A DNA stretch of 64,000 nt from Puerhibacterium puerhi (GTDB lineage: Bacteria > Actinomycetota > Actinomycetes > Actinomycetales > Cellulomonadaceae), in the NCBI RefSeq assembly GCF_009846865.1, contig NZ_WUWN01000001.1, positions 186,001-250,000 of the forward strand, read 5' to 3'. Shown in pieces: positions 43,423 through 63,131 of the stretch. The position numbers were made by a program, and so were the translations under genes. Below the pieces are notes generated by a model that had not been told where the DNA came from, ran no database searches, and saw only the letters and a list, made by a program, of their open reading frames with translations. Positions within the stretch are counted from its first letter, which is position 1. Every line of letters starts with the position of its first letter.

Positions 43423-43450
43423 GCATCCCCCGAGCATCCCCGGCACGCAC

Positions 43451-43488
43451 GAGGGCGCCCCGCCGGCCGTGGCCGGCGGGGCGCCCTC
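43451..43488. terminator. Perfect 18-bp hairpin terminator
   Basis: GAGGGCGCCCCGCCGGCC pairs perfectly with its complement across a GT loop, between convergent genes ending at 43422 and 43555. Smaller stems (CTGCGCGG/CCGCGCAG near 43500-43520) follow. Confidence 0.85.
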
Positions 43489-43554
43489 TCCCCGGAGTCC
43501 TGCGCGGCCCCCCGCGCAGTCCCTGCGTCGACCCCCTGTCGACGTCGTGCCGCG

Positions 43555-44892: not shown

Positions 44893-44950
44893 GAAGACTC
44901 CTGTGTCTGTGGGAGTCGGGCAGCGATGCCCGGAGGGGGAGGGAGGGACG

Positions 44951-45913: not shown

Positions 45914-45989
45914 GATGGTCCTCCTCAGGGGGTGCTGTGGTGCAGGGGGTGGTGCAGGGGAAGGGAGATCAGGGGGTGGGTGGCGCGGC

Positions 45990-46799: not shown

Positions 46800-47293
46800 C
46801 AGCAGGACCCGGCGGCCTCGGGTGCGGTGCCGGCGGCGGCCTCGACCTCGCTGATCGCCGCGACCTTGGGCGCGGACGACGAGGCCGGGTCGAACCGGTA
46901 GCCGAGCCACTCGCGCACCAGGCGCTTGGCGAGCTCGATGCCGATGACGCGCTGGCCCATGCACAGCACCTGCGCGTCGTTGGACAGCACCGAGCGCTCG
47001 ACGGAGAACGAGTCGTGCGCCGTGACCGCGCGCACCCCCGGCACCTTGTTCGCCGAGATGGCCACGCCGAGGCCCGTGCCGCAGATCAGCAGGGCCCGGT
47101 CGGCCTCGCCCGCGGCGACCATGCGGGCCGCGGTGGCGCCGACGTAGGGGTAGTGCGTGTGCTCGTCCGAGCCCACGCCGACGTCGACCACCGACGCGAC
47201 GCGCTCGTCCTTCTCGAGCTCGGCCTTGAGGATCTCCTTGTAGTCGAACCCCGCGTCGTCGGAGCCGACCACCAGGCGCAGCGTGTCGGTCAT
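46799..47293 (-). CDS. RpiB/LacAB-family sugar-phosphate isomerase
   Basis: This 164-residue isomerase has the RpiB pattern: [19 protein letters not shown] (residues 8-26), [16 protein letters not shown] near 37-52, the catalytic cysteine in [20 protein letters not shown] (near 71) and [20 protein letters not shown] near 90. The family includes ribose-5-phosphate and erythrose/erythrulose-4-phosphate isomerases (EryI/DerI). Both ends overlap neighbours by ATGA, so it is tightly co-translated with the DhaKL-like kinase and the TpiA-like isomerase. A tetrose-phosphate role is inferred from that context. Confidence 0.92.
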
Positions 47294-49032
47294 CAGGAAC
47301 CCACCTTCGTCTCGTCAGCGGCGGCGCCGAGCACGGCGCCGGCCTCGGCCAGGAGCATCGCGAGCGACGTCGCACCCGGGTCGGGCACGCCGAGGCTCTT
47401 GTCGCCCAGCACGCGGGAGCGGCCACGGCGGGCCGCGATGTCCTTCGTGGACTCGGCGCCGGAGCGGGCGGCGTCGACGGCCGCGCCCCAGGCGGCGGCC
47501 AGGTCGGTGCCGTCGCCGTGGGTGGCGACGAGCGTCTCGGTCGCGGGCGCGAGCGCGTCGACGAGCGTCTTGTCGCCCGGGCGCGCACCGCCGATGCCCG
47601 TGACCGCGTCGTGGAAGGCCTGGACGCCGCGCACGGCGTCGTCGGCGCTCACGTCGGCGTCGGCCGGCAGCACGTCGGCCAGCGCCAGCAGCCCCACGCC
47701 CCACAGGGCCCCGGAGGTGCCGCCGGCCTTGTCCGCCCACGCGTCGGCGGCGCGGCGCAGCACGGACGGCGCGTCGCCGTCCGCCTCGAGCGCGGCGTCC
47801 GCGGCCGCGACGGCGGCGTCGATGCCGCGGCACATGCCCCGGCCGTGGTCGCCGTCGCCGGCGATCGCGTCGAGCCGGCCCAGCTCCTCCTCCGCGCCGT
47901 GCAGGGCGTCCTGCCAGCGGTGCAGCACCTCGGCCACCTGGCGGGCGGCGCGGCGGCCGGCCTCGGTGGTGGCGGCGGTCAGCGCGGGCTCCGGCTCGGC
48001 CAGCGCCTCGGGCGCCGCGGTCTCGGGCGCCGCGCGCCACGAGCCGTGGTGGAACGCCGGGGTGTCGGCGGGCGCGAGCCACAGCGGCTCGAGCTCGTCG
48101 TCCAGCCACGCCACGGTGAGCGAGCAGCCGGCCATGTCGAGGCTGGTGACGTACTCGCCGACCAGCGGCGCGACCAGCGTGACGCCCCGCTCGACCAGCA
48201 GGTCGCTCACCCGGTCCCACAGGACGAAGAGCTCCTCGTACTTCACGTCGCCCAGGCCGTTGAGGATGACGGCGGCGCGGCCGTCGGCGTCCGCGGGGCG
48301 CTCGGCGAGCACGCGGTCGACCATCTCCTGCGCGAGCACCGCGGCCGAGGGGCGGGGCTCCTCCCCCACGCCCGGCTCGCCGTGGATGCCCAGGCCCCAG
48401 CCGACCACGCCCTCGTCGAGGTGGAACAGCGGCGCCTCCGCGCCCGGCAGCGTGCAGCCGTCGAAGGCGACGCCGAAGGAGAACGTGCGGTCGTTGGCGT
48501 GCGCGGCCAGCCGGGTGACCTCGGCGAGGTCGGCGCCGGCCTCGGCGGCCGCGCCGGCCACCTTGAAGACCACCAGGTCGCCGGCGACGCCGCGCCGCTC
48601 GGCGGCGCGCTCCGGCGGGGCGGAGACGACGTCGTCGGTCACCGCGAGCACGGAGACCTCCATGCCCTGCGCGCGCAGGCGGCTGGCGGCGGCGCCGAAG
48701 TTCAGCACGTCGCCGGCGTAGTTGCCGAACGACAACCACACGCCGGCGCCGGCGTCGGCGGCGCGGCAGACGTCGATGACCTGGCGCGTCGACGGCGAGG
48801 CGAACACCTCGCCGCACACCGCGGCGTCGGCGAGCCCGTCACCGATCACGCCGGCGAACGCCGGGTAGTGGCCGGAACCGCCGCCGACGACGACGGCGAC
48901 CTTGCCGGGGCGGGTGCCGTCGGCGCGGGCGATGCCGCCGGGGACGCTGCGGAGCCGGCCGGGGTGGGCCTTGACCAGGCCGGAGAGCGCCTCGCGGGCG
49001 AAGTCCTCGGGCCGGTTGTGGACGTACGTCAT
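47293..49032 (-). CDS. Fused DhaK-DhaL kinase (dihydroxyacetone/erythrulose kinase type)
   Basis: This 579-residue ATP-dependent kinase combines two domains. DhaK (about residues 1-330) has [20 protein letters not shown] near 43-62 and the substrate-binding histidine in [15 protein letters not shown] near 215. DhaL (about 370-575) has the nucleotide/Mg motif [15 protein letters not shown] near 390 and [14 protein letters not shown] near 430. The C-terminal [20 protein letters not shown] and [13 protein letters not shown] match the ATP-using single-chain enzymes. Substrate could be dihydroxyacetone or D-erythrulose; the adjacent RpiB- and TpiA-like isomerases favour a tetrulose, or a C4 acid degraded to dihydroxyacetone. 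Confidence 0.93.
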
Positions 49033-49072
49033 GAGACCTGCACCTTTGCTCGTGTCGTCAGTCGGTCGCGGG

Positions 49073-50002
49073 TCAGCGGCCCGCGGAGCGCAGCACGCCG
49101 CGGATGTACTCGCGGTTGAGCGCGGCCACGCCGAGGCTGTCGGAGCCGTAGTGCTCGCAGACGAAGACGCCCTCGAAGCCCAGCTCCAGCGCCCGGCGGA
49201 TGTGGTTGCGGTAGTTCACGACGCCCGAGACCAGCGGCGCCGGGTGGGTGGCGTAGGTGCCCGTCGTCGGGTCCTCGTCACGCGTGTAGTTCTTGATGTG
49301 CCAGAAGTTCGTGAACGGCAGGACCTTCTCGAACATCGTGGGGATGTCCTCGATCGGGCGGTGCAGGCGCACCAGGTTGCCCAGGTCGGGATTGAGGCCC
49401 ACGTTCTCGCGGTCGACGTCCTGCACGAACCGCACGGCGAGGTCCGGGGTGCCGATGAAGGTGTCCTCGTACATCTCGAGGCTGATCGCCACGCCCACCT
49501 CGGCGGCGTGGTCGGCCAGCTCGCGGATGCGGCGGATCGCCTCGTCGCGCGCGGCGGGGTCATCGACCGGGTCGTGGTGCCCCTCGGCCAGCCAGAACCA
49601 CAGCGCCTTCTGCTGGGCCGGCGTGAGGTCCTGCATGAAGCCGAAGTTCACGACCTCGGCGCCGAGCGCCGGCGCGCGGTCGATGATCGCGTGGCCGATG
49701 CGCAGGTAGTCGTCGCCGCGCTTCGCGTCGACGACGCTGCGGCGGGTGGTCGAGACCGACGGGACCGCCAGGCCGACCTCCTTGAGGACGGCGAGCAGCT
49801 CGCCGAACCGGGCGTCCGACAGCTCGCCGATCGACAGCCAGGCGTCCGTGGGGTCGACGTCGGTGAACCCGAGGTCGGCGACCTGCTGGAGCTGGGAGCG
49901 CCACGACTCGGCGGGCGCCTCGAGGTTGGGGGTCCCGTCGGCCGTCGTCGAGCCGAAGGACAGCATGTTGGCCGCGATGGGCCAGGTGTCAGCAGTGCGC
50001 AC
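49073..50002 (-). CDS. Sugar phosphate isomerase/epimerase-like TIM-barrel protein
   Basis: This 309-residue protein has the AP-endonuclease-2/xylose-isomerase-like TIM fold: ESWRSQLQQVADLGFTDVDP (about residues 32-51), PSVSTTRRSVVDAKRGDDYL near 82, ISLEMYEDTFIGTPDLAVRF near 173 with the metal glutamate, NVGLNPDLGNLVRLHRP near 199, FTNFWHIKNYTRDEDP near 230 with the metal histidine, and a terminal glutamate in GVFVCEHYGSD near 285. Such enzymes isomerise or epimerise free or phosphorylated sugars. It is the first gene of the operon, directly behind a palindromic operator. Reaction not assignable. Confidence 0.88.
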   Translation of the reverse strand: MRTADTWPIAANMLSFGSTTADGTPNLEAPAESWRSQLQQVADLGFTDVDPTDAWLSIGELSDARFGELLAVLKEVGLAVPSVSTTRRSVVDAKRGDDYLRIGHAIIDRAPALGAEVVNFGFMQDLTPAQQKALWFWLAEGHHDPVDDPAARDEAIRRIRELADHAAEVGVAISLEMYEDTFIGTPDLAVRFVQDVDRENVGLNPDLGNLVRLHRPIEDIPTMFEKVLPFTNFWHIKNYTRDEDPTTGTYATHPAPLVSGVVNYRNHIRRALELGFEGVFVCEHYGSDSLGVAALNREYIRGVLRSAGR

Positions 50003-50029
50003 AATGATCTCCGTCGATCGGACGTCTTC

Positions 50030-50049
50030 GTGTTTCCTATAGGAAACAC
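50030..50049. promoter_or_regulatory. Perfect 20-bp operator palindrome GTGTTTCCTATAGGAAACAC
   Basis: A perfectly symmetric 20-mer, A/T-rich compared with its surroundings, lies 28 bases upstream of the first gene of the 44-50 kb operon. TATAGG within it could also be part of the -10 region, so a bound repressor would block the promoter. The nearby FCD-type GntR regulator (42736-43422) is the leading candidate to bind it. Confidence 0.75.
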
Positions 50050-50098
50050 GCTCGGCGTTGCCTCGTCAAACCGGGACCTCCGCGGCCCGCACGACCAC

Positions 50099-50150
50099 GG
50101 GTCCCTGGCGGTCCGAGACAGACCCCTCTGTCTCGGACCGCCAGGGACCC
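50099..50150. terminator. Perfect 24-bp hairpin downstream of the ABC operon
   Basis: Arms 50099-50122 and 50127-50150 pair without mismatch around a CCCC loop. The element ends the leftward ABC operon (last stop at 50225) and insulates the next operon's promoter at about 50050. Confidence 0.85.
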
Positions 50151-50224
50151 GGAATGCGGCGCGCGAGCGCGGGTGCGGCGCGGGTGCGGCGCGGGTGCAG
50201 CGCCGTGGCCGGCGCTGGCGGAGG

Positions 50225-51037
50225 TCAGTCGCCGCCCTGCGGCGAGCCCAGCAGGGTGCGCACCCGGCTCGCCACGCGGTGGAACTCGGGGTCCTCCATC
50301 GCGGCGGTGTAGTCGCGCACGGGCGGCAGGTCCACCCGCAGCTCCTCCACCACGCGGCTCGGGCGCGGGCCCATCACCACGACCCGGTCGCCGAGGTAGA
50401 CGGCCTCGGGGACCGAGTGGGTCACCAGCAGCACGGTGACCCCGGCCTCGCGGCACACCCGCTGCAGCTCGACGTTCATCCGCTCGCGGGTCAGCGCGTC
50501 GAGGGCACCGAACGGCTCGTCCATGAGCAGCACGTCCGGCTCGTGCAGCAGCGCCCGGCACAGCGAGACGCGCTGCTGCATGCCGCCGGACAGCTCGTGC
50601 GGCATGGCCTTCTCGAAGCCGCTGAGGCCCGTGGTCTCGATCAGCTCGGCGCAGCGACGGCGGGCCGCCGCCGCGTCCATGCCCCGCATCTCCGCCTGCA
50701 GCAGGATGTTGCCCTCGGCGGTGCGCCAGTCCAGCAGGGCGGCGCGCTGGAACACGAAGCCGATGTCGGGCCGCGGGCCCGCCACGACGTCGCCCCGCAG
50801 CCGCACCTGCCCGGTGGTGGGGGCCACCAGGCCGGCGACCACCTTGAGCAGCGTCGACTTGCCGCAGCCGGAGGGCCCAACGATGGAGACGAACTCCCCC
50901 GGCCGCACCGCGAGGTCCACCTCGCCGAGCGCGCTCGTCGAGGCACGCTTCGAACGGAACGTCACGGACACCCCGTCGACGGACACGACGTCCTGCGCCG
51001 TCCCGGCGACCCCCGGCTCCTCGGTCAGCGTCGTCAC
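50225..51037 (-). CDS. ABC importer ATPase (nitrate/taurine/thiamine-precursor type)
   Basis: This 270-residue ATPase starts at GTG 51037 (AGGAGGGG upstream). Motifs are Walker A VGPSGCGKST (about residues 47-56), Q-loop GFVFQRAALLDWRTAEGN near 91, signature LSGGMQQRVSL near 150, Walker B DVLLMDEPFGALDALTRE near 170 and switch His VTHSVPEAVYLGDRV near 204. It belongs to the SsuB/TauB/NrtD/ThiZ subfamily. An in-frame ATG at 51103 with its own weak ribosome binding site would add an N-terminus of repeated Thr-Arg-Ala-Arg encoded by a 12-bp tandem repeat; I judge it less likely. It follows the binding protein and permease genes. Confidence 0.92.
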   Translation of the reverse strand: MTTLTEEPGVAGTAQDVVSVDGVSVTFRSKRASTSALGEVDLAVRPGEFVSIVGPSGCGKSTLLKVVAGLVAPTTGQVRLRGDVVAGPRPDIGFVFQRAALLDWRTAEGNILLQAEMRGMDAAAARRRCAELIETTGLSGFEKAMPHELSGGMQQRVSLCRALLHEPDVLLMDEPFGALDALTRERMNVELQRVCREAGVTVLLVTHSVPEAVYLGDRVVVMGPRPSRVVEELRVDLPPVRDYTAAMEDPEFHRVASRVRTLLGSPQGGD

Positions 51038-51050
51038 TGCCCCTCCTGCC

Positions 51051-51086
51051 CTCGTCCGTGCCCTCGTCCGTGCCCTCGTCCGTGCC
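51051..51086 (-). repeat. Three copies of a 12-bp tandem repeat
   Basis: CTCGTCCGTGCC occurs three times head to tail, with a partial fourth, between the binding-protein stop and the ATPase start. Confidence 0.9.
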
Positions 51087-51108
51087 CTCGTCGCGGTCAC
51101 CATGGCTC

Positions 51109-52149
51109 TCACTCCCCCGACGGGGCGAACGCGTCGTCGTAGTACTCCTCGACGCCCTTGCCGCCCTCGATCAGGCCGGCGGTCGACAGCACGTCGAGCG
51201 TGTTCTGCCAGTCCGCCGGGTCGTTGGCGCCCGGGGCCTGGCCCTCGGTCTCGTCCGTGTGCAGCAGCTCGACCGTCTGCTGCCACTGCTCCAGGAGCAC
51301 GTCCTTCGCCGGCATCTGCGGGTCCTTGCCCTCCATCGACGCCACGGCCGCCTCCGGGTCCTCGGCCGCCGCCGCGAACGCCTCTGACGTGGCCGCGACC
51401 ATGTCCGAGACCAGCTCGGCGTCGTCGGTGATCGTGCCCGTGCTGGCGACCAGGCCGTTGGAGTAGAAGCTCAGGCCGACGTCGGAGTAGCGCAGGTAGC
51501 TCACCTCCCTGCCGCTCTTGGCGGCGATCGTCGGGCCCTGGTCGTGGGCGAACCCGATCAGGCCGTCGACCTGCTCGGTGAGCATCGCCGACACCTTGCC
51601 CGCCGCGTCGAGGTTCTGCTGCTTGACGTCGTCCGGGCCGAGCCCGGCAGCCTCGAGGTACATGGGGAACGTGGTGGTCGGGGCGTCGCCGGCCGAGACC
51701 GCGATGGTCTTGCCGGCCAGGTCGGCCGGCTCCGCGATCCCCGAGTCGGCGAACACCTGCACCGCCGACGGCGTCGTCTGGAGGAAGACGCCGACGCTGC
51801 GGGCGTCGACGCCCTTGTCCACGTTGGCCAGCAGCGCGGGCGTGTCCGCCCAGCCGAACTCGACCTGGCCGCCGCCGACGGCCTGGACCGTCTTGGTGGA
51901 GCCCTGGCCGGCCTCGATCGTCAGGTCGATGCCGTGGTCGGCGAAGATGCCCTGCTCGACGCCGTAGTAGAAGGGCGCGTGCTCGCCGTACGGGTACCAG
52001 TTGAGCATCAGCGTCACGGCGCGGGACTCGTCGCCGCCGCTCGCGGCCGAGCCGCCCGCGGCGTCCGAGGAGGCGCAGCCGGCGAGCGCGAGGGCGGTGG
52101 CCGCGACGGCAGCCGCTGCGGCCAGGGACGTGTGCCGGGGGTGGGACAT
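51109..52149 (-). CDS. ABC transporter substrate-binding lipoprotein, NMT1/THI5-like
   Basis: This 346-residue lipoprotein has a signal peptide and lipobox LALAGCASS with Cys near residue 25. The mature protein follows the NMT1/THI5-like pattern: VTLMLNWYPYGEHAPFYYGV (about 45-64), EQGIFADHGIDLTIEAGQGS near 65-84, GQVEFGWADTPALL near 95, VGVFLQTTPSAVQVFADSGI and DLAGKTIAVSAGDAPTTTFP near 130-150. The NWYP-H-PFYYG motif is typical of proteins binding aromatic or heterocyclic compounds such as pyrimidine or thiamine precursors, but related ones bind other small molecules. Substrate unknown. It is co-transcribed with ABC permease and ATPase. Confidence 0.92.
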   Translation of the reverse strand: MSHPRHTSLAAAAAVAATALALAGCASSDAAGGSAASGGDESRAVTLMLNWYPYGEHAPFYYGVEQGIFADHGIDLTIEAGQGSTKTVQAVGGGQVEFGWADTPALLANVDKGVDARSVGVFLQTTPSAVQVFADSGIAEPADLAGKTIAVSAGDAPTTTFPMYLEAAGLGPDDVKQQNLDAAGKVSAMLTEQVDGLIGFAHDQGPTIAAKSGREVSYLRYSDVGLSFYSNGLVASTGTITDDAELVSDMVAATSEAFAAAAEDPEAAVASMEGKDPQMPAKDVLLEQWQQTVELLHTDETEGQAPGANDPADWQNTLDVLSTAGLIEGGKGVEEYYDDAFAPSGE

Positions 52150-52216: not shown

Positions 52217-53080
52217 TCAGGCGCCGGCGACGGTCGTCGCGGCGGTGGCGGCACGCCGGGAGGGGTGCCAGCCGATGAGCAGGCGCTCGGCGATCTCGAT
52301 GATCAGGAACAGGACGATGCCCAGCAGCGACATGACCACGAGCGCCGCGAACAGCATGGCGGTGTCGATGTTGCCGTTGGCCTGGAGGATCACGTACCCG
52401 AGGCCCTCGTTGCCGCCGACGAACTCGCCCACGACGGCGCCCGTCACGGCGAGCGTCGCCGCGACCTTGAGCCCGGACAGCAGCTGCGGCAGCGAGGCCG
52501 GGAACATCACCTTGGCGAAGGTCTTGAGCCGGCTCGCGCCCATCGTCGAGGTCAGCTCGATCACCTCAGGGTCGACCGAGCGCAGACCGGCCAGCCCGGA
52601 GATGACCACCGGGAAGAACGCCATGAGCACGGCCACGGTGATCTTCGGCGCGACGCCGAACCCGAGCCACACCACGAACAGCGGCGCGATCGCGATCTTG
52701 GGGACCACCTGGGCCACCAGGATGATCGGGTAGACCGTGCGCTCGGTGGTCGGCGAGTAGGCCATGAGCACGGCGACGAGCTCGCCGATCACGACCGCCA
52801 GCGCGAAGCCGATCACCGTCTCGTACGTCGTCACCCAGGTGTGCTGCCCCAGGTAGGCGGCGTTCTCGGCCGCCGCCGCCCAGGTGTCCGCGGGCGAGGG
52901 CAGCACGTACGGGGCCAGCCAGCCCTGGGCGGTCACCACCCACCAGACCACCAGCACCGCGACCACCAGGGTCAGCGGCCGCCACGCCGCCGCCCACCAC
53001 CGCGCCGGCGCGGGCGATCGCCGCACCGCCGTCCTGCTCTGCCGGGCTACCGTAGCCCGGTCCGACACCACTGCGGTCAT
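52217..53080 (-). CDS. ABC importer permease (BPD_transp_1)
   Basis: This 287-residue inner-membrane protein has about six helices. The segment TTYETVIGFALAVVIGELVA (near 85) and the EAA loop LTSTMGASRLKTFAKVMFPASLPQLL (about residues 175-200, with G-A-S and the P) identify a SsuC/TauC/ThiX-type permease that docks the ATPase. It is the first gene of the leftward operon permease-binding protein-ATPase. A LacI operator GGAATGCGCTTTCC lies 35 bases upstream of its ATG. With it the importer is probably under control of the adjacent LacI repressor. Confidence 0.93.
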   Translation of the reverse strand: MTAVVSDRATVARQSRTAVRRSPAPARWWAAAWRPLTLVVAVLVVWWVVTAQGWLAPYVLPSPADTWAAAAENAAYLGQHTWVTTYETVIGFALAVVIGELVAVLMAYSPTTERTVYPIILVAQVVPKIAIAPLFVVWLGFGVAPKITVAVLMAFFPVVISGLAGLRSVDPEVIELTSTMGASRLKTFAKVMFPASLPQLLSGLKVAATLAVTGAVVGEFVGGNEGLGYVILQANGNIDTAMLFAALVVMSLLGIVLFLIIEIAERLLIGWHPSRRAATAATTVAGA

Positions 53081-53114
53081 CAGACCCCCTCGTCGCTGAG
53101 GTGACCCACGTCAC

Positions 53115-53128
53115 GGAATGCGCTTTCC
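53115..53128. promoter_or_regulatory. LacI operator GGAATGCGCTTTCC (importer side)
   Basis: A 14-bp palindrome (one mismatched pair) lies 35 bases upstream of the permease start and 67 bases beyond the stop of the LacI gene. It is the exact reverse complement of the site at 54435-54448. Confidence 0.85.
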
Positions 53129-53194
53129 ACGCACCGTAGACGCCGCGGCGGCGAGGGTCAAGCGGACCGGGCGGCGGCCGACGACGGTCGCCGC

Positions 53195-54214
53195 TCAGCC
53201 ACCGGTGGACTCGCGCAGCAGCACCTGGGTGGCCAGGGCGGGGTCAGCCTCGCCCGCCTCGTCGGCCTCGCCGAGCGCCACGAGCACCGCACGGCGGCCG
53301 ATCTCCTCGAGCGGCACGCGCACGGTGGTCAGCGCCGGCACGTGGTCGCGCAGCGTCGGGATGTCGTCGAACCCGGCCACCAGCACGTCGCGCGGCACCG
53401 CCAGCCCGGCGTCCCGCAGGCCGGCGATGAGGCCGATCGCCATCACGTCGGTGACGGCGAAGACGCACGGCCGCCCGGCCCCGTCCCGCGCCAGCCGGGT
53501 CACCTCGGCCGCCGCGCCGTACCCGCCGTCCCGGGAGAACTGGCCGGCGACGACCGCCGGCTCGACGTGGCCGCCGCCGGCCTCGGCGGCCGCGGTGAAC
53601 GCGTCGGCGCGCTCCCGGGCCGTGACGACCCGGTCCGGCCCGGTCACCACCACGAAGCGCCGGTGCCCCTGGCCCAGCAGCGCCTCGGCGAGGGCCCGGG
53701 AGCCGGGGGCGTTCGGCGGCCGGACCACGGCGGCCTCGCCGAGCGGCTGGCCCACGACGACGGCGCGGCCGCCGGCGGCGGCGTAGCGGCCCAGCGCCTC
53801 GGCCAGGGCGGCGTCGTCGTCCCCGGTCCAGCGTGTGCCGACGACGACGATCGCGTCCGCCCGGTGCGCGGCGAACGCGTCCACCGCCTCGCGCTCGGCC
53901 GCCGGGTCGCGGTCGGTGCTGGCCAGCAGCAGCTGCAGGCCGTGCGGTCGGGCCTGCGCCTGCGCGCCCGCGGCGATCGAGGAGAAGTACGGGTCGGAGA
54001 TGTCCTGCACGACCAGGCCGAGGAGCCCGGTGCGGGCCTTCGCGAGCGCCTGCGCCTGGGCGTTGACGACGTAGCCGAGCTCGGCGGCCGCCGCGCGGAC
54101 CCTCTCCACCAGGGCGGGCGCCGGCGTGCGGCTGGAGCCGTTGAGCACGCGCGAGGCGGTCGCCAGCGACACGCCGGCGCGCGCCGCGACGTCCTGCAAC
54201 CGGGGTCTGCCCAC
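53195..54214 (-). CDS. LacI-family repressor of the flanking importer and catabolic operon
   Basis: This 339-residue regulator starts at GTG 54214. The LacI headpiece is RLQDVAARAGVSLATASRVL (residues 5-24), with hinge VVNAQAQALAKART. The sugar-binding-like core has LLGLVVQDISDPYFSSIAAG (about 63-82), IVVVGTRWTGDDD, and VLVAGFDDIPTLRDHVPALT near 275-294. It lies between the divergent ABC importer and the Gfo/Idh-DUF993-isomerase operon. Each of these has one copy of the same 14-bp operator. The effector is probably the imported compound or an intermediate of its breakdown. Confidence 0.93.
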   Translation of the reverse strand: MGRPRLQDVAARAGVSLATASRVLNGSSRTPAPALVERVRAAAAELGYVVNAQAQALAKARTGLLGLVVQDISDPYFSSIAAGAQAQARPHGLQLLLASTDRDPAAEREAVDAFAAHRADAIVVVGTRWTGDDDAALAEALGRYAAAGGRAVVVGQPLGEAAVVRPPNAPGSRALAEALLGQGHRRFVVVTGPDRVVTARERADAFTAAAEAGGGHVEPAVVAGQFSRDGGYGAAAEVTRLARDGAGRPCVFAVTDVMAIGLIAGLRDAGLAVPRDVLVAGFDDIPTLRDHVPALTTVRVPLEEIGRRAVLVALGEADEAGEADPALATQVLLRESTGG

Positions 54215-54332
54215 GCTCCCACCTCCGGTGACGCACCCTAGACCTCGGGCCCGCGGGGCGGCAGCAGGCGGCGCTCGCGGGATCGCGACGGCACCGCTAC
54301 AGGGCCGCGACGGGATCGCGACGGAGCCGCGA

Positions 54333-54362
54333 CGGTGTCGCGGCGGAGCCGCCGCGACACCG
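54333..54362. repeat. 14-bp hairpin in a divergent promoter region
   Basis: CGGTGTCGCGGCGG pairs perfectly with CCGCCGCGACACCG across an AG loop. GGGATCGCGACGG-type direct repeats lie just before it (54278-54330). It is upstream of both flanking genes, so it is not an ordinary terminator; it may be a structural or regulatory element. Confidence 0.55.
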
Positions 54363-54434
54363 CCGCGGCAGCCCGGCGCGCCCGCCGTGGGCGCCGGGTG
54401 CCTTGACGTCGCGACGCTCGCCGCCTACGGTGCC

Positions 54435-54448
54435 GGAAAGCGCATTCC
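54435..54448. promoter_or_regulatory. LacI operator GGAAAGCGCATTCC (catabolic side)
   Basis: This is identical to the 53115-53128 operator read on the other strand, 35 bases upstream of the Gfo/Idh ATG. The distance to the start codon is almost the same as on the importer side. Confidence 0.85.
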
Positions 54449-54482
54449 CGCGCACCCCTTGCCCCCGGACGAAGGAGTCCCG

Positions 54483-55646
54483 ATGGCCACCCGCACCCTG
54501 CGGATCGCGATGAACGGCGTCACCGGACGCATGGGCTACCGCCAGCACCTGCTGCGCTCGATCCTGCCCATCCGGGAGCAGGGCGGCGTCCTGCTCCCCG
54601 ACGGCACGCGGGTGCAGGTCGAGCCCGTCCTGGTCGGCCGCAACGAGACCCGCCTGCGCGAGCTCGCCGCCCAGCACGACGTCGCGGAGTGGACCACCGA
54701 CCTCGACGCCGCGATCGCCGACCCGGCCACCGACGTCGTCTTCGACGCCTCGATGACCTCGCTGCGCGCCAAGACCCTCACCAAGGCCATGCAGGCCGGC
54801 AAGCACGTCTACACCGAGAAGCCGACGGCGGAGACGCTCGCCGAGGCGGTCGAGCTCGCGCGGCTGCGCGCGGAGGTCGGCGTCACCGCCGGCGTCGTGC
54901 ACGACAAGCTCTACCTGCCCGGCCTGGTCAAGCTGCGCCGCCTCGTGGACGAGGGCTTCTTCGGGCGCATCCTGTCGCTGCGCGGCGAGTTCGGGTACTG
55001 GGTGTGGGAGGGCGACGTGCAGCCGGCGCAGCGCCCGTCGTGGAACTACCGGGCGCAGGACGGCGGCGGCATGACCACCGACATGTTCTGCCACTGGAAC
55101 TACGTGCTCGAGGGCATCGTCGGCACCGTCCGCACGGTGACCAGCCAGACCGCGACGCACATCCCCACGCGCTGGGACGAGCAGGGCCGCCCGTACGAGG
55201 CCACCGCCGACGACGCCGCGTACGGGATCTTCCAGCTCGAGACGCCGGCCGGCGACCCGGTGGTGGCGCAGATCAACTCCTCGTGGGCGGTGCGGGTGCA
55301 CCGCGACGAGCTCGTGGAGTTCCAGGTGGACGGCACGGAGGGCTCCGCCGTGGCCGGGTTGTTCAGGTGCGTCGCGCAACCGCGCTCGGCCACGCCCAAG
55401 CCGGTGTGGAACCCCGACCTGCCCACCACCGAGCGCTTCCGGGACCAGTGGCTCGAGATCCCCGCGAACGCGGACCTCGACAACGGGTTCAAGGCGCAGT
55501 GGGAGGAGTTCCTGCGCGACGTCGTCGCCGGCCGCCCCCACCGCTTCGACCTGCTCTCGGCCGCCCGGGGCGTGCAGCTGGCCGAGCTCGGCCTGCGCTC
55601 GTCGGCCGAGGGCCGCCGCCTCGACGTCCCGGAGATCACGCTGTGA
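54483..55646 (+). CDS. Gfo/Idh/MocA-family oxidoreductase
   Basis: This 387-residue NAD(P)-dependent dehydrogenase has an N-terminal Rossmann domain (LRIAMNGVTGRMGYRQHLLR, residues 6-25, with GVTGRMG in place of the usual GxGxxG) and the family signature with catalytic lysine, KHVYTEKPTAETLAEAVELA near 103-122. The substrate domain includes GVVHDKLYLPGLVKLRRLV near 136 and GGGMTTDMFCHWNYVLEGI near 195-213. Family members oxidise secondary alcohols of sugars, inositols or glycosides. GAAGGAG precedes ATG 54483. It is the first gene of a three-gene operon with GTGA and ATGA overlaps. Confidence 0.9.
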   Translation: MATRTLRIAMNGVTGRMGYRQHLLRSILPIREQGGVLLPDGTRVQVEPVLVGRNETRLRELAAQHDVAEWTTDLDAAIADPATDVVFDASMTSLRAKTLTKAMQAGKHVYTEKPTAETLAEAVELARLRAEVGVTAGVVHDKLYLPGLVKLRRLVDEGFFGRILSLRGEFGYWVWEGDVQPAQRPSWNYRAQDGGGMTTDMFCHWNYVLEGIVGTVRTVTSQTATHIPTRWDEQGRPYEATADDAAYGIFQLETPAGDPVVAQINSSWAVRVHRDELVEFQVDGTEGSAVAGLFRCVAQPRSATPKPVWNPDLPTTERFRDQWLEIPANADLDNGFKAQWEEFLRDVVAGRPHRFDLLSAARGVQLAELGLRSSAEGRRLDVPEITL

Positions 55647-56932
55647 GCGCGCCCGCCACCGCCCCCGGGACCCGCCGGGCCCCCGTGCTCGGGCCCAGCG
55701 GCGTGACCGTGCGCCTGCCCCGGTTCGACGACGGCGGCCGCGTCGCGGGCACCGAGCTGCGCGAGCTCAACGCCCCCGGCCCGTGGACCCGGCCGACGGC
55801 GCCGCTGACCTCCCGCGTCGCGTTCGCCGCGGCGCACGTCGTGCCCCGGGCCGGGGCCGACAACGTGCCGGGCGCGCCCGCCGTCGTCGACTGGGACGCG
55901 ACGCTCGCCTACCGCCACCGGCTGTGGGAGCACGGCCTCGGCGTCGCCGACGCGATGGACACCGCCCAGCGCGGCATGGGCCTGGACTGGACGGCCACGC
56001 AGGAGCTGGTGCGCCGGACCGCGGCCGAGGCGCGCGCCGCGGGCGGCCGCATCGCCTGCGGCGCGGGCACCGACCAGCTCGACCCCGCCGTCGTCGCCGG
56101 GTGGCAGCCCGGCGACCCCGCGGCGCTCGAGGCGGTCGTGGCCGCCTACCGCGAGCAGATGCACCTGGTGCAGGACGCCGGCGCGCAGGTCATCGTCATG
56201 GCCTCCCGCGCCCTGGCGCGGGTCGCCCGCTCCGCCGAGGACTACGCGCGGGTCTACGACGCCGTGCTCGCCGAGGCCGACCGGCCGGTGATCCTGCACT
56301 GGCTCGGCACGATGTTCGACCCCGCGCTGGCCGGCTACTGGGGGTCGGCGGACGTCGACGGCGCGACGGCCACGTTCCTGGACGTGATCCGCGCCCACCA
56401 GGACAAGGTCGACGGCGTGAAGGTGTCCCTGCTCGACGCCGCGCACGAGGTCCGGCTGCGCCGGGCCCTGGCCGCGCTCGACGGCTCCCCGGTGCGGCTG
56501 TACACCGGCGACGACTTCAACTACCCCGAGCTGATCGCCGGCGACGAGCAGGGCCACAGCGACGCGCTGCTGGGCGTGTTCGCCGCGATCTTCCCCGCGG
56601 CGTCGACGGCGCTGCAGGCGTTCGACGCCGGCGCCGCGGGCGACCCGGACGGCGCCGCCCGCGGCCACGCGATCCTGGCGTCCACCGAGGCCCTCGGCCG
56701 CCACCTGTTCGGCGCGCCCACGTACTACTACAAGACGGGCGTGGCGTTCCTGTCCTGGCTCAACGGCTTCCAGCCGGGGTTCCAGATGGTCGGCGGGCTC
56801 CACGCGGGCCGGTCGGTGCCGCACCTGGTCGAGCTGGCCCGGCTGGCCGACGGCTGCGGGCTGCTGCTCGACCCGCCGGTGGCCGCCGCCCGGCTGCGGG
56901 CCCTGCTGGCCACGGCGGGGGTGGACGCATGA
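55643..56932 (+). CDS. DUF993 family protein (DapA-like TIM barrel)
   Basis: This 429-residue protein matches the DUF993 family of uncharacterised proteins with an aldolase/dihydrodipicolinate-synthase-like barrel. Landmarks are HVVPRAGADNVPGAPAVVDWDATLA near 70-93, HGLGVADAMDTAQRGMGLDW near 99, RPVILHWLGTMFDPALAGYW near 214, DGVKVSLLDAAHEVRLR near 255 with a lysine at the place where class I aldolases hold the Schiff base, YTGDDFNYPELIAGDEQGHSD near 285, and PTYYYKTGVAFLSWLNG near 360. The reaction is unknown; a retro-aldol or lyase step after oxidation by the Gfo/Idh enzyme is a guess. Start and stop overlap both neighbours. Confidence 0.85.
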   Translation: MSAPATAPGTRRAPVLGPSGVTVRLPRFDDGGRVAGTELRELNAPGPWTRPTAPLTSRVAFAAAHVVPRAGADNVPGAPAVVDWDATLAYRHRLWEHGLGVADAMDTAQRGMGLDWTATQELVRRTAAEARAAGGRIACGAGTDQLDPAVVAGWQPGDPAALEAVVAAYREQMHLVQDAGAQVIVMASRALARVARSAEDYARVYDAVLAEADRPVILHWLGTMFDPALAGYWGSADVDGATATFLDVIRAHQDKVDGVKVSLLDAAHEVRLRRALAALDGSPVRLYTGDDFNYPELIAGDEQGHSDALLGVFAAIFPAASTALQAFDAGAAGDPDGAARGHAILASTEALGRHLFGAPTYYYKTGVAFLSWLNGFQPGFQMVGGLHAGRSVPHLVELARLADGCGLLLDPPVAAARLRALLATAGVDA

Positions 56933-57864
56933 GCGCCGCGCCCGGCACCGGCTCCGCTCCCGACCTGAGCCGCTGCTCGCTCAACCAGGCCACGGTCAAG
57001 CACGCCACCCTGCCGGAGGCCGTGGCGGCCGCCGCGGCGGCGGGGATGGGAGCGATCGGGCTGTGGCGCGACCGCGTCCAGGAGGTCGGCGCCGAGAAGG
57101 CCGCGCGCATCGTCGCGGAGGCCGGCCTGCGGGTGTCGTCGCTGTGCCGCGGCGGTTTCCTCACCGCCGCCGACGACGCCGCGGTCGCCGCCGCGCTGGA
57201 CGACAACCGGCGCGCGATCGAGGAGGCCGCCACCGTCGGCACGCGCGAGCTGGTGATCGTCGTCGGCGGCCTGCCCGCCATCAGCGGGTTCGGCCAGGGG
57301 CCGCGGCCCGACGCCGTCCCGGGCGACCGGGACGTCGTCGCCGCGCGCGCCCGTGTGGCGGACCGGCTCGCCGACCTCGCGCCCGTGGCCGCCGAGCACG
57401 GCGTCCGGCTCGTCCTGGAGCCGATGCACCCGCTGTTCGCGGCGGACCGCGGCGTGCTGTCCACGCTGGACCAGGCGCTCGACCTGGCCCAGCCGTTCCC
57501 GGCCGACGTCGTGGGCGTCGTCGTGGACACCTACCACGTGTGGTGGGACCCCGAGCTGCGCGAGGCGATCGCCCGGGCGGGCCAGGAGGGCCGGATCGCC
57601 GGCTACCAGGTGTGCGACTGGGTGCTGCCGCTCGCTGCCGACCCGCTGCACTCCCGCGGGCACGTGGGCGACGGCTACGTGGACTTCCCGACGATCACCC
57701 GGTGGGTCGCCGAGAGCGGCTACGCGGGTGACGTGGAGACGGAGATCTTCCACGAGGGCGTCTGGGCCGCCGACCCGGCCGGCACGGCACGGACCGTGGC
57801 CGACCGCTACGCGCGGCACGTCCTGCCTGCGCTGACGGCCCGGGCCGCCGCGCCCGGCCGCTGA
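56929..57864 (+). CDS. Sugar phosphate isomerase/epimerase-like TIM-barrel protein
   Basis: This 311-residue xylose-isomerase-like TIM barrel has LSRCSLNQATVKHATLPEAV (about residues 13-32), MGAIGLWRDRVQEVGAEKAA near 41-60, VRLVLEPMHPLFAADRGVLS near 158-177 with the metal glutamate, VGVVVDTYHVWWDPEL near 190 with Asp/His ligands, and VETEIFHEGVWAADP near 265 with the last glutamate. It overlaps the DUF993 gene by ATGA. The trio Gfo/Idh, DUF993 and TIM-barrel isomerase is a fixed-looking catabolic unit whose substrate is not known to me. Confidence 0.9.
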   Translation: MSAAPGTGSAPDLSRCSLNQATVKHATLPEAVAAAAAAGMGAIGLWRDRVQEVGAEKAARIVAEAGLRVSSLCRGGFLTAADDAAVAAALDDNRRAIEEAATVGTRELVIVVGGLPAISGFGQGPRPDAVPGDRDVVAARARVADRLADLAPVAAEHGVRLVLEPMHPLFAADRGVLSTLDQALDLAQPFPADVVGVVVDTYHVWWDPELREAIARAGQEGRIAGYQVCDWVLPLAADPLHSRGHVGDGYVDFPTITRWVAESGYAGDVETEIFHEGVWAADPAGTARTVADRYARHVLPALTARAAAPGR

Positions 57865-60302: not shown

Positions 60303-61424
60303 TCAGCGGCGGTATCGGACGGCGTCCCACACGCCGAGCAGGTACTGGATGCCCAGCGCGCGGTCGTACAGGCCGTACCCGGGCCGCGGCTTGTTGGTCG
60401 TGTTCTCGTCCCACAGGTGCCGGCCGTGGTCGGGCCGCACGTACCCGGCGTACCCGGCCTCGGCGTACGCCGTCATGATCCCGACGGTGTCGACGTCGCC
60501 CTCGCACGCCCGGTGGGCGACCTCGCTGAAGTCGCCGTTCGGGAAGTGCTTGATGTTGCGCACGTGGGTGAAGTGGATGCGGTCCATGAACGTGCGCACC
60601 GCGTCGACGGCGTCGTGCTCGGGGTTGGCGGAGAACGAGCCGAGGCACAGCGTCAGGCCGTGGTACGGGCTGTCGTGCAGCGACAGCACGCGCTCGAGGT
60701 CCTTCTTGGTGGAGACCACGCGCGGCCAGCCGAACAGGTCGAACGGCGGGTCGTCCGGGTGCACGCCCAGCTTCACGTCGTGCTCCTCGCAGGCGGGGAC
60801 CACGGCGTCCAGGAAGTACCTGTAGTTGGCGTACATGTCCTCGTGGGTCACGCCCGCGTAGGCCGCGTCGAGCTCGCGGAAGTGCGCCAGGCGCTCGGGC
60901 TCCCAGCCCGGGAGCGTGAGGCCGCCCGAGCCGGCCTCCATCTCGGCGATGAGGGTCTCCGGCGACATCCGGTCCACCACGGCCTTCTCGTAGAACAGCG
61001 CCGTGGAGCCGTCGGGCAGCGGGTGCCACAGGTCGGTGCGCAGCCAGTCGAAGACGGGCATGAAGTTGTAGCAGACCACCTTGACCCCGGCCCGGCCGAG
61101 GCGCGCGATCGTGGTGACGTAGTTGTCGATCGCCTCGTCGCGGCTCATGCCGAGCACCGTCCTGCCGAGCTTGATCGACTCATGGACGTTGACCGACTCG
61201 ACGACCTCGGCGTCGAAGGTCCGCGTGATCCCCGCTGCCCGGTGGGCGTCGGTGAGCGTGGTGATCCGGGCGACCTCGGCGTCGATCTCCTCCTGCTCCC
61301 AGACCTCGCCGGCCTGCTTGTGGTGCAGGCTCCACACGATCGTCTCCACGCCCGGGACCTGGCGCACGTGGTCCAGCGTCACGGTGTCGTTGCCCTCGCC
61401 GTACCAGCGGAAGCCCATCTTCAT
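60303..61424 (-). CDS. uxuA: Mannonate dehydratase
   Basis: This 373-residue enzyme dehydrates D-mannonate to 2-keto-3-deoxygluconate in hexuronate breakdown. Family landmarks are MGFRWYGEGNDTVTLDHVRQ at the N-terminus, GVKVVCYNFMPVFDWLRTDL near 133 with metal-site Cys/Asn, VKLGVHPDDPPFDLFGWPRV near 220 with His and Asp, LCLGSFSANPEHD near 262, HFTHVRNIKHFPNGDF near 285, and GYVRPDHGRHLWDENT near 325. Length is slightly below E. coli UxuA (394). GAGGAG precedes ATG 61424. It lies downstream of uxuB and its LacI regulator on the same strand. Confidence 0.96.
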   Translation of the reverse strand: MKMGFRWYGEGNDTVTLDHVRQVPGVETIVWSLHHKQAGEVWEQEEIDAEVARITTLTDAHRAAGITRTFDAEVVESVNVHESIKLGRTVLGMSRDEAIDNYVTTIARLGRAGVKVVCYNFMPVFDWLRTDLWHPLPDGSTALFYEKAVVDRMSPETLIAEMEAGSGGLTLPGWEPERLAHFRELDAAYAGVTHEDMYANYRYFLDAVVPACEEHDVKLGVHPDDPPFDLFGWPRVVSTKKDLERVLSLHDSPYHGLTLCLGSFSANPEHDAVDAVRTFMDRIHFTHVRNIKHFPNGDFSEVAHRACEGDVDTVGIMTAYAEAGYAGYVRPDHGRHLWDENTTNKPRPGYGLYDRALGIQYLLGVWDAVRYRR

Positions 61425-61559
61425 CGGGGGTGCTCCTCGTCGTCGTGCTGTCGTGCTGATGACGTGCTCATGACGTGCTCGTGCTGTCGTGCTCGTGTCG
61501 TGCAGGGTGGCGGCGCGTCGCCCTCGGGTCCCGGTCCGTGCTCGGGCCCCGGTCCGTCG
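61425..61559. repeat. Low-complexity CGTGCT-rich spacer between uxuB and uxuA
   Basis: Repeated TCGTGCT, GACGTGCT and similar short words fill 61440-61505, followed by a 2x direct repeat TCGGG(T/C)CCCGGTCCGT at 61520-61557. It contains no gene or clear promoter. Confidence 0.6.
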
Positions 61560-63131
61560 TCAGCGCAGGCCCTGGCCGCGGCCGGCGAGCGCCTCGGCGT
61601 GCTCGACGACGGCGGTCACGAGCCGCGCGTCGCTGCCGGCGCCGTCGGGCAGCAGCCCGGGCAGCGCGACGAGCCCCGTCGCCACCGCGGCGACGTCGTC
61701 GGTGCCCGCCGCCCGCACGGCTGCGGCGAGCCGGTGCGCGCCGGCGGGATCTCCGAGGTCGACGCCGTCGCGCACGGCCCGGCGCACGAACTCGCTCCAG
61801 GCTGCCAGCCCGTGCGCGACGCCCTGCGGCACGCGGCCGCGCTCCAGGTGCCAGGCGGCGACGGCGCCCCAGCGGAACGGGATCTTCTGCGTGCCGTCGC
61901 CGGACACCTGCGTGGTGGTGTGGCCCGTGGCGGGGTTGGCGAACCGCCGCATCAGCTCGGCGCCGTACGCGGCGAGGTCCGCCCCGGCGGGCGGGGCGAG
62001 GGTGGGCAGCGCGTCGTCGGTCATGTACGCCCAGGCGTGCGTGGCGACGTGGGGGTCGGCCACCGCCTCGGCGAGCGTGGCGTGCCCGGCCAGTCGCCCG
62101 GCGTACGCCAGCAGCGAGTGGGTGCCGTTGAGCATCCGCAGCTTGGCGGCCTCCCACGGCGCGACGTCGTCGACCAGCTCGGCGCCGGCGCGCTCCCAGG
62201 CGGGCCGCGGCCCCGCGAAGCGGTCCTCGATCACCCACTGGCTGAACGGCTCGGCGACCACCCCGGCGTCGTCCCGGGCGCCGATCGTCGCCGCGATCCG
62301 GGCGAGGACCTCGGGCGTGGTCGCCGGGGTGATGCGGTCGACCATCGAGCTGGGGAACGTGACCGACGCGGCCAGCCACCCGCGCAGGGCGTCGCCGACG
62401 GCCCCGGGCAGCGCCGCGTCGACGACCTCGGCCACGAGACGAGCCAGGACCCGGCCGTTGTGGGCCACGTTGTCGCAGCTGAGCACGGTGACGGGGGCGC
62501 CGCCGGCGCGGCGGCGGGCCGCGAGGCCCCGCACGAGCAGGCCGAGCGCGCTCGTGGCGGGGCGGGCGTCGTCGGCCACGTCCGCGCGCCCCGCGACCTC
62601 CTCGGCGGCGAGCGCCGCGACGTCGTCGGCCACCTGCGCGGCGTCGAGGTGGCCGTCGGGGCGGCGGCAGTAGCCCTTCTCCGTGATGGTCAGGGTGACC
62701 ACGTGCGTGGTGGCGGCGGACAGCGCCGCGACCAGGCGCGGCGTCTCGTCGAGCGGCGAGGCGACGTCGACGACGGCGCCGACGACCCGGGCCGAGGCGG
62801 CCGGCTCGCCGTCCCCGCCTCCGCCCACCGACAGCACCGTGTAGCGACCGCCCTGCCGGCGCGCGGCGGCGGCGACGGGCGAGGGGCGCCTCATGCCCGC
62901 GACGCCGAGGATGCCCCAGCGCAGGTCGCCGGTGGCGGCCATGGCGTCCTCGGTGCACACCGCCTGGTGGGCGCGGTGGAACGCGCCCCAGCCCAGGTGC
63001 ACCAGGCCCACCTGCTCCGGCAGGGCGCGCGGCTCGGCGACGCCGGCGGGCAGCGGCGTGCCCGGGCCCAGGAGGGGCAGGCCGGTCGGCACGTCGGTCG
63101 GCACGTCGACGGGCACGTCGGTCGAGGTCAC
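61560..63131 (-). CDS. uxuB: Mannitol dehydrogenase-family fructuronate reductase
   Basis: This 523-residue polyol dehydrogenase starts at GTG 63131. Features are VGLVHLGWGAFHRAHQAVCT (about residues 39-58), ITEKGYCRRPDGHLD near 148, VTVLSCDNVAHNGRVLARLV near 215 with SCDN, VTFPSSMVDRITPATTPEVL near 253, and KLRMLNGTHSLLAYAGRLAG near 325 with the K-x6-H-type catalytic lysine/histidine region. In this cluster it would reduce D-fructuronate to D-mannonate, the substrate of UxuA; mannitol or tagaturonate activity is possible. The GTG overlaps the LacI stop upstream (GTGA). Confidence 0.9.
   Translation of the reverse strand: MTSTDVPVDVPTDVPTGLPLLGPGTPLPAGVAEPRALPEQVGLVHLGWGAFHRAHQAVCTEDAMAATGDLRWGILGVAGMRRPSPVAAAARRQGGRYTVLSVGGGGDGEPAASARVVGAVVDVASPLDETPRLVAALSAATTHVVTLTITEKGYCRRPDGHLDAAQVADDVAALAAEEVAGRADVADDARPATSALGLLVRGLAARRRAGGAPVTVLSCDNVAHNGRVLARLVAEVVDAALPGAVGDALRGWLAASVTFPSSMVDRITPATTPEVLARIAATIGARDDAGVVAEPFSQWVIEDRFAGPRPAWERAGAELVDDVAPWEAAKLRMLNGTHSLLAYAGRLAGHATLAEAVADPHVATHAWAYMTDDALPTLAPPAGADLAAYGAELMRRFANPATGHTTTQVSGDGTQKIPFRWGAVAAWHLERGRVPQGVAHGLAAWSEFVRRAVRDGVDLGDPAGAHRLAAAVRAAGTDDVAAVATGLVALPGLLPDGAGSDARLVTAVVEHAEALAGRGQGLR

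Follow-up and report, generated by a model that had tools for sequence, protein, structure and literature searches.

The window analyzed here is a 64,000-nucleotide stretch of the Puerhibacterium puerhi genome (assembly GCF_009846865.1, contig NZ_WUWN01000001.1, positions 186,001 to 250,000). It contains a predicted LacI-family regulon that joins an NMT1-type ATP-binding cassette (ABC) importer to an operon for a Gfo/Idh oxidoreductase, a DUF993 protein and a TIM-barrel protein (TIM1). The repressor gene is placed between these two divergent operons, and in the catabolic operon the Gfo/DUF993 and DUF993/TIM1 gene pairs each overlap by 4 bp. The features of the locus, in window coordinates, are as follows.

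50225-51103, minus strand: ABC transporter ATPase, SaoA/NtrCD/TauB-like (NCBIfam; start codon inferred)
51109-52149, minus strand: NMT1/THI5-like substrate-binding protein with a lipobox-like LALAGC (Pfam; start codon inferred)
52217-53080, minus strand: ABC permease, BPD_transp_1 (Pfam)
53115-53128: predicted LacI-type operator O1 of the importer operon, GGAATGCGCTTTCC on the plus strand
53133-53161, minus strand: promoter-like TTGACC-N17-TACGGT of the importer operon, with the -10 end 4 bp before O1
53195-54214, minus strand: LacI-family repressor, 339 aa, helix AGVSLATASRVLNGS (PF00356 and PF13377)
54403-54431, plus strand: promoter-like TTGACG-N17-TACGGT of the catabolic operon, with the -10 end 3 bp before O2
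54435-54448: predicted LacI-type operator O2 of the catabolic operon, GGAAAGCGCATTCC on the plus strand
54483-55646, plus strand: Gfo/Idh/MocA oxidoreductase, 387 aa, closest solved relative 3oqb (Pfam)
55643-56932, plus strand: DUF993 protein (PF06187), DapA-superfamily barrel with K260 as putative Schiff-base lysine (Pfam)
56929-57864, plus strand: TIM1, xylose-isomerase-like TIM barrel, AP_endonuc_2 (Pfam; solved relatives 7vpf, 3ju2 and 3qc0)

An initial annotation of the window had proposed the same gene identities, and Pfam agreed with it for the NMT1 binding protein, permease, LacI, Gfo/Idh, DUF993 and TIM barrel, as did NCBIfam for the ATPase. The NMT1 binding protein is accompanied by its cognate permease and ATPase, which places the transporter among the NMT1-type ABC importers; none of the three subunits reached an NCBIfam cut-off among the families shown.

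O1 lies 35 positions from the permease start (53080, minus strand) and O2 lies 35 positions from the Gfo start (54483, plus strand). The exact pattern GGAAWGCGCWTTCC occurs in the 3.9-Mb genome at O1 and O2 only, with no matches for the reversed-pattern control, and the 14-bp operator pair noticed in the initial annotation is thus confirmed as the sole exact matches in the genome. A search allowing up to 3 mismatches returned 2 sites compared to 3.7 expected in shuffles, a comparison that says nothing on the exact pair. Each operator, a CG-centred near-palindrome of a type that is conserved along with its LacI regulator, is directly preceded by a sigma70-like promoter, so that blocking at the start site is naturally suggested. 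A looser form of this promoter pattern (17-18 bp spacer, ending 1-7 bp before the site) was found at 16 further sites in other genomes, giving a total of 18 of 118 site-strand pairs (both strands of every site included), whereas 8 of 20,000 random positions show the pattern.

For comparative analysis, we used 80 named loci of DUF993 relatives, the best-scoring among the matches listed, together with 20 loci of related genomes and 12 annotated plasmid loci hand-picked from 147 records (L and G numbers below denote loci and genomes). Partner genes were counted by tblastn, as scripted calls of open reading frames (ORFs) include shadow frames, and were named by hidden Markov model scans or record annotation; the Pfam and NCBIfam scans of neighbours cover selected genes. 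The Gfo-DUF993-TIM triad is present in this order in 78 of the 80 named and all 20 related loci, and a LacI gene is found within 1.5 kb in 68 of the 80 named loci. Exact GGAAWGCGCWTTCC sites occur up to 350 bp upstream of Gfo in 32/80 named and 14/20 related loci, while LacI-like near-palindromes in general are found upstream of Gfo in 67/80 and 15/20, respectively. The layout of the window recurs in six Mycobacteriales loci (Nocardia, Rhodococcus/Rhodococcoides and Mycolicibacterium), all of which have the exact site before both permease and Gfo. The pair is also kept in a genome of the window's own family, G009, which has the importer, Gfo-TIM1 and both operators (one site with one mismatch) in the absence of DUF993. 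The proposal that a single LacI regulon joins the importer to the Gfo/Idh-DUF993-TIM operon is therefore upheld by conservation of the operator pair in relatives, which the initial annotation had named as one of the points on which the link would stand or fall. In a Micromonospora locus (L067), where importer and cassette are arranged differently, the operator site was not found.

The repressor changes along with its sites. Among 85 loci with LacI near Gfo, the recognition helix reads TASR in all 50 that have GG..CC sites and TVSR in all 29 that have AG..CT sites (Streptomyces and Kitasatospora), and six loci have LacI and neither site type. Judging from these loci, operator and repressor helix change together without exception. 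In 18 genomes of hand-chosen loci the exact site was found once or twice per genome, with zero matches for controls. Four of these genomes' sites are second sites that do not precede an NMT1-type importer; two of them precede permeases matching the sugar ABC permease annotated in L113, and one precedes another AP_endonuc_2 gene. The fourth, in Nesterenkonia (L146:5743), is flanked by tal (transaldolase) and pgi (glucose-6-phosphate isomerase) within a transketolase-tal-pgi-zwf cluster, the gene names being our reading of the sequence. Overall, the promoters, operators and members of the regulon are supported by this comparative evidence.

The regulon was further assessed in 221 genomes of the window's family, where exact GGAAAGCGCATTCC is present in 107, DUF993 in 59 and a particular flavoprotein in 57. 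The site was found in 106 of 113 genomes with DUF993 or the flavoprotein, compared to 1 of the 108 genomes that lack the two; by class, it occurs in 52/56 genomes with DUF993 only, 51/54 with the flavoprotein only and 3/3 with both. The loci and genomes are mutually related, and Fisher values on this table are descriptive only. Among the 107 operator-bearing genomes, 51 lack DUF993 and have the flavoprotein. We examined this alternative in 14 operator stretches from 13 hand-picked site-bearing genomes. Gfo and TIM1 are under the operator without DUF993 in 12 of the 14, and likewise in G009; of the remaining two, one is from a DUF993 genome (L218, which is G014) and the other (L209) has a second site, upstream of a sugar-type binding protein. 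The flavoprotein is a FAD_binding_2 domain protein of ~686 aa with distant likeness to L-aspartate oxidase and the succinate dehydrogenase flavoprotein (SdhA/NadB-like). It is present in all 13 genomes of the DUF993-less operator loci, inside the stretch in eight of 13 (two cut), and a short-chain dehydrogenase/reductase (SDR) of the PRK12745 type is present in 6 of the 8 loci where the flavoprotein was read. In G009 and G050, the SDR and flavoprotein genes are located downstream of the NMT1 importer in the same direction. Across the family, 47 of the 57 flavoprotein genes are on the operator's contig, at a median distance of 5.9 kb from the operator and never more than 13.3 kb away. The remaining 10 comprise seven on a different contig than the operator and three in genomes without the exact operator.

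Both DUF993 and the flavoprotein are present in 3 of the 221 genomes, compared to ~15 expected if they were independent (59 x 57 / 221), and in those three genomes the operator shares its contig with DUF993 while the flavoprotein is elsewhere. At the genus level, two genera (g7 and g24) share both genes versus 3.2 expected; within g24, genome G059 has DUF993 and genome G252 has the flavoprotein. Mutual exclusion as proof of an exchange between DUF993 and the flavoprotein is weakened, since it mostly follows lineages, and the weak exclusion between genera slightly lowers the likelihood of the wider reading given below. The position of the flavoprotein near the operator is better evidence. In our reading, the regulon has a lower branch of two alternative forms, one with DUF993 and one with the flavoprotein, and an exchange of function between them is putative. 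A wider reading, in which the cassette encodes an undescribed catabolic route of several phyla, DUF993 represents a new Schiff-base class with a rebuilt active site (His for Tyr, a DTAQR motif for GTTGE), and its step is exchangeable under the same operator for the SDR and flavoprotein, one intermediate being processed by C-C cleavage or by oxidation, is tentative and in our judgment somewhat more doubtful than convincing. In five genomes (G014, G036, G053, G220 and G225) DUF993 was matched in two pieces; in genus g14 the break falls at profile position 243-246 in three of four DUF993 genomes, where either an insertion or a splitting of the gene may have occurred.

The DUF993 protein of the window was modeled with a mean predicted local distance difference test score (pLDDT) of 92. 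Its closest solved relative is 4dnh (SMc04132 of Sinorhizobium meliloti; 53% identity, Z 55.7), a member of the same family whose title names no function. Dihydrodipicolinate synthase (DHDPS) enzymes come next, with Z 29.4-30.6 and a root-mean-square deviation of 2.2-2.4 A over 283-291 residues. In an hhalign comparison (probability 88.5), K260 is aligned with DapA K160 and H219 with Y132; the aligned block stops short of the GTTGE region, and MDTAQRGM is on the expected strand by inferred position. K260, H219, D106, T107, R110, D290, D291 and K364 are invariant in 35 DUF993 sequences, the sources of which include Actinomycetota, Pseudomonadota, Thermosporothrix and Paenibacillus. The DapA-like barrel with a candidate Schiff-base lysine, as first suggested, thus finds support in the fold (Z ~30) and in K260, whereas the catalytic tyrosine of the DapA proton relay is not kept, the invariant His219 being in its place. 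DUF993 shares the barrel fold and lysine position with the DapA/N-acetylneuraminate lyase superfamily (DHDPS, KdgD and L-KDA dehydratase) and differs from it in length (429 versus ~290 residues), in forming its own family, PF06187, and in His219 for Tyr; Pfam DHDPS (PF00701) gave no match, and PF06187 was the sole family found. On this reading, DUF993 would be a DapA-superfamily barrel with a changed active site and a putative class I lyase.

DUF993 matches occur in 147 of 72,556 plasmid records, and a solved structure of the family has been available since 2012. A literature search returned no paper naming DUF993, 4DNH, PF06187, 3OQB, 7VPF or SMc04130, and in an excerpt of PMC12542648 SMc04132 appears in one table row. 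The conserved operator, the fixed gene set and the alternative gene pair make the function of DUF993 directly approachable by experiment. Four loci (L120, L121, L122 and L123) have DUF993 and TIM1 without an adjacent Gfo gene, next to varying sets of CoA-transferase, acyl-CoA dehydrogenase, enoyl-CoA hydratase or electron transfer flavoprotein genes, and three of the four have an SDR in the same gene run. These cassettes may represent a second use of DUF993.

The solved relatives of the other two enzymes are as follows: 3oqb of Gfo is named only 'Oxidoreductase', and 3ju2, 3qc0 and 7vpf of TIM1 are named 'uncharacterized protein SMc04130', 'sugar isomerase' and 'Xylose isomerase', respectively. 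E163, D199, H202 and D229 are invariant in TIM1 and E269 and E271 nearly so, a residue set that we take to resemble the metal site of sugar isomerases; TIM1 looks metal-dependent from its sequence. Gfo scored 68.1 of 650 bits against the levoglucosan dehydrogenase LgdA (NF052479) and 54.1 of 355 bits against the inositol dehydrogenase IolG (TIGR04380), both below cut-off. The levoglucosan pathway resembles the window in combining a Gfo/Idh enzyme, PF01261 proteins (LgdB1 and LgdB2) and an ABC importer, as given in an extract of PMC10066097; it differs in that the window Gfo scores far under the LgdA cut-off and in that DUF993 is named in no paper found, and the former point led us to reject it. 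A strain named LG01 (L046) is among the sources of the cassette-bearing loci. Four Micrococcaceae-type loci (L040, L048, L055 and L061) have, downstream of TIM1, a gene for a ~700-aa protein with an N-terminal Gfo/Idh-like part (weak NCBIfam matches in L061) and a gene read as M24-peptidase-like.

The binding protein of the importer has its best solved relative in a formylaminopyrimidine binder (E 2e-16). The initial annotation had taken NMT1-type importers as an indication of heterocyclic or aromatic substrates, an argument that is weakened by the sugar-type ABC, tripartite tricarboxylate or major facilitator superfamily (MFS) carriers found beside the cassette in other genomes; the tricarboxylate-type carriers are in L115 and L124. 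More distant NMT1-type importers accompany the cassette in Microvirga and Chelatococcus, and G050 has the importer and both operators without DUF993. NMT1-type importers, the ligands of which are often guessed as heterocycles, would here be tied to a carbohydrate-type pathway.

Genes adjoining the cassette in other genomes give an indication of its chemistry. Six of the 80 named loci (L037, L038, L051, L058, L067 and L088) have, by tblastn, a glycerate kinase gene no more than 4.3 kb from the start of Gfo. Such a gene also accompanies the cassette in two of the 20 related loci (L156, and L168 at 6 kb) and in five of the 12 plasmid loci (L114, L117, L118, L119 and L120). Ten of these kinases were scanned: eight belong to PF02595, including five of the six from named loci, and the two others, of L117 and L118, are members of another family, DUF4147/MOFRL; the kinases of L037, L156 and L168 were assigned by tblastn. 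By our own estimate, a background of one or two kinase copies per ~5 Mb would place one within 4.3 kb in well under one of 80 loci. In Nocardia L038, where the importer operon is under operator control, the kinase gene begins 49 bp after the ATPase gene. In Nocardiopsis L082, the first gene after TIM1 starts within 24 bp of the TIM1 end and exceeds the cut-off of PRK03620 (5-dehydro-4-deoxyglucarate dehydratase); the gene after it is galactarate-dehydratase-like but scores below cut-off. An aldehyde dehydrogenase gene directly adjoins TIM1 in L163. Of seven proteobacterial loci of the Gfo type, four (L110, L113, L116 and L124) have enolase-superfamily genes by annotation or tblastn, and in L115, L117 and L118 none was found by these means. 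Such dehydratase and enolase components belong to aldonate and aldarate pathways ending in glycerate or 2-oxoglutarate semialdehyde. The neighbouring glycerate kinases, the KdgD-type gene and the sugar-acid-type dehydratases favour a polyhydroxy acid that is cut to three-carbon (C3) units, and we prefer such a substrate with C3 products at modest confidence; the enolase-superfamily genes and the tricarboxylate-type carriers of L115 and L124 likewise speak for an acid. The glycoside, nucleoside-like or C-glycosyl compound initially guessed is disfavoured by these genes. Neighbours of a nucleoside type occur only sporadically. L113 has a cytidine deaminase at its far edge, and by our reading of sequences L082 has a deaminase-like ORF next to Gfo, and Streptomyces loci have ribose-type genes.

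Under the proposed mechanism, LacI would bind at the two divergent promoters, in each case to an operator covering the start site, and block both, presumably by steric hindrance, until an inducer, either the substrate or an early product, releases it. The importer operon would bring in a polyhydroxylated (sugar-type) acid through the NMT1-type ABC importer. Gfo/Idh would then oxidize a hydroxyl to a ketone with NAD(P), TIM1 would isomerize or dehydrate the keto-acid, and DUF993, as a class I lyase with a lysine Schiff base, would cleave it to C3-type units, which in some relatives may end as glycerate and be passed to the glycerate kinase of the same cluster. All chemistry after import is what we infer, and the initial description of a complete pathway is to be taken as tentative. 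LacI-family local sugar regulons with promoter-overlapping operators are a known class, which the locus resembles in having a repressor gene beside its targets and a CG-centred near-palindrome over the start site; it differs in its target set, an NMT1 importer with Gfo-DUF993-TIM that has no assigned substrate. As a LacI catabolic regulon it is ordinary in kind and unusual in content, with an undescribed enzyme family and an operator-linked alternative.

Several observations weigh against the polyhydroxy acid scheme. Glycerate kinase was not found in 74 of the 80 named loci (some on short contigs) or near the cassette of the window, the genome's only full-length PF02595 gene being on another contig and the DUF4147 type absent. 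The KdgD-type gene of L082 does not reach the TIGR KdgD equivalog cut-off, and the enolase-superfamily label has marginal Pfam support in L113 and none in L116. A neutral sugar would better fit the sugar-type ABC carriers that accompany close relatives of the cassette, and would also fit both the weakly pyranose-oxidase-like GMC gene beside a 78% identical Gfo on plasmid pAO1 and the depositors' name of 7vpf. G009 is without DUF993 while Gfo and TIM1 stay under the operator, and three proteobacterial loci, which do not fit the scheme, have the cassette with an SDR and no Gfo beside CoA-transferase, acyl-CoA dehydrogenase or enoyl-CoA hydratase genes; Rhodococcus L120 is similar to these three, with a Gfo-family gene 3 kb off. 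The extra exact site between tal and pgi is not predicted by the scheme. As for the importer, its operon is absent from G001, which has the cassette and operator, and an importer with a 75%-identical binding protein is ~156 kb from DUF993 in G080. Taken together, we consider the full model of a LacI regulon for polyhydroxy acid import and Gfo/TIM1/DUF993 cleavage to C3 units to be evenly poised between right and wrong.

An oxidative pathway for pentoses of the D-xylose type, with Gfo as sugar dehydrogenase and DUF993 as 2-keto-3-deoxypentonate aldolase or dehydratase, would accommodate the name of 7vpf, the xylA/xylB-like genes that we read near Arthrobacter-type loci, and the pAO1 cluster, in which the 78% identical Gfo lies beside a sugar ABC importer, an aldehyde dehydrogenase, DUF993 and a glycerate kinase. 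Plasmid pAO1 reportedly, by the title of a publication, encodes an oxidative xylose pathway, for which this cluster is presumably responsible. If so, the likeness to the window consists in Gfo adjoining DUF993, whereas the importer is another sugar ABC type, a GMC oxidoreductase and an aldehyde dehydrogenase are additional, and TIM1 is missing. As the xylA/xylB-like neighbours are also confined to Arthrobacter-type genera, except for one xylA-like gene in L034, and ribose-type neighbours to Streptomyces and Kitasatospora, we regard a pentose route as unlikely. A similarly improbable route would lead through 3-keto-glycosides: Gfo would oxidize C3 of a compound such as glucosylglycerate, TIM1 would eliminate the D-glycerate aglycone and DUF993 would cut the keto-sugar. 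This would make use of the adjoining glycerate kinases and of the anionic nature of such a glycoside, and it agrees with the weak matches of Gfo to levoglucosan and disaccharide 3-dehydrogenases and with the membership of TIM1 in PF01261, shared with LgdB1 and LgdB2 (PMC10066097, extract). However, the 68 bits of Gfo are distant from the 650 of the levoglucosan dehydrogenase cut-off, and the KdgD-type and enolase-superfamily partners are left unexplained.

The importer could also share the repressor by chance and carry a vitamin precursor or other compound of a separate pathway, as its formylaminopyrimidine-binding relative, its absence in G001 and its separation from DUF993 in G080 would allow. 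This is rendered quite improbable by the recurrence of the importer with both operators in the six Mycobacteriales loci, in G009 and, without DUF993, in G050, by the distant NMT1-type importers of Microvirga and Chelatococcus, and by the glycerate kinase inside the importer operon of L038. G001 belongs to the same genus as the window, and the two are collinear, at 86-95%, in the segment between UxuA and LacI inclusive and once more in TIM2-DAK. A recent gain of the importer by transfer was considered and is not upheld, since G009 and G050 of the family also have the importer with operators; loss in G001 is as likely as gain in the window.

Downstream of the importer operon, positions 42736-50052 contain genes for a GntR regulator, an MFS carrier, 3-hydroxyacyl-CoA-dehydrogenase-like, triosephosphate isomerase-like and RpiB-like proteins, a DAK kinase (47293-49032) and a second TIM barrel, TIM2 (49073-50002), which may serve a tetrulose or apionate-type pathway. 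A perfect 20-bp palindrome, GTGTTTCCTATAGGAAACAC, precedes the TIM2/DAK cluster at 50030-50049 and has no further match elsewhere in the genome at up to 3 mismatches. Between TIM2 and the importer operon lies a 25-bp perfect inverted repeat with a 4-nt loop (50098-50151). Because of their own palindrome and this intervening repeat, TIM2 and DAK were not counted as regulon members; read-through from the importer operon is possible. With up to 2 mismatches allowed, the 17-base core of the inverted repeat is matched 14 times on the forward and 15 times on the reverse strand of the genome. Most of these matches pair to form the same hairpin, which points to a dispersed repeat or terminator family. 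On the other side of the regulon, positions 60303-64000 probably hold a hexuronate cluster, with genes for a UxuA-type mannonate dehydratase and a member of the mannitol dehydrogenase family that resembles fructuronate reductase (below cut-off), and another LacI-type ORF; UxuA adjoins the cassette in G001 too.

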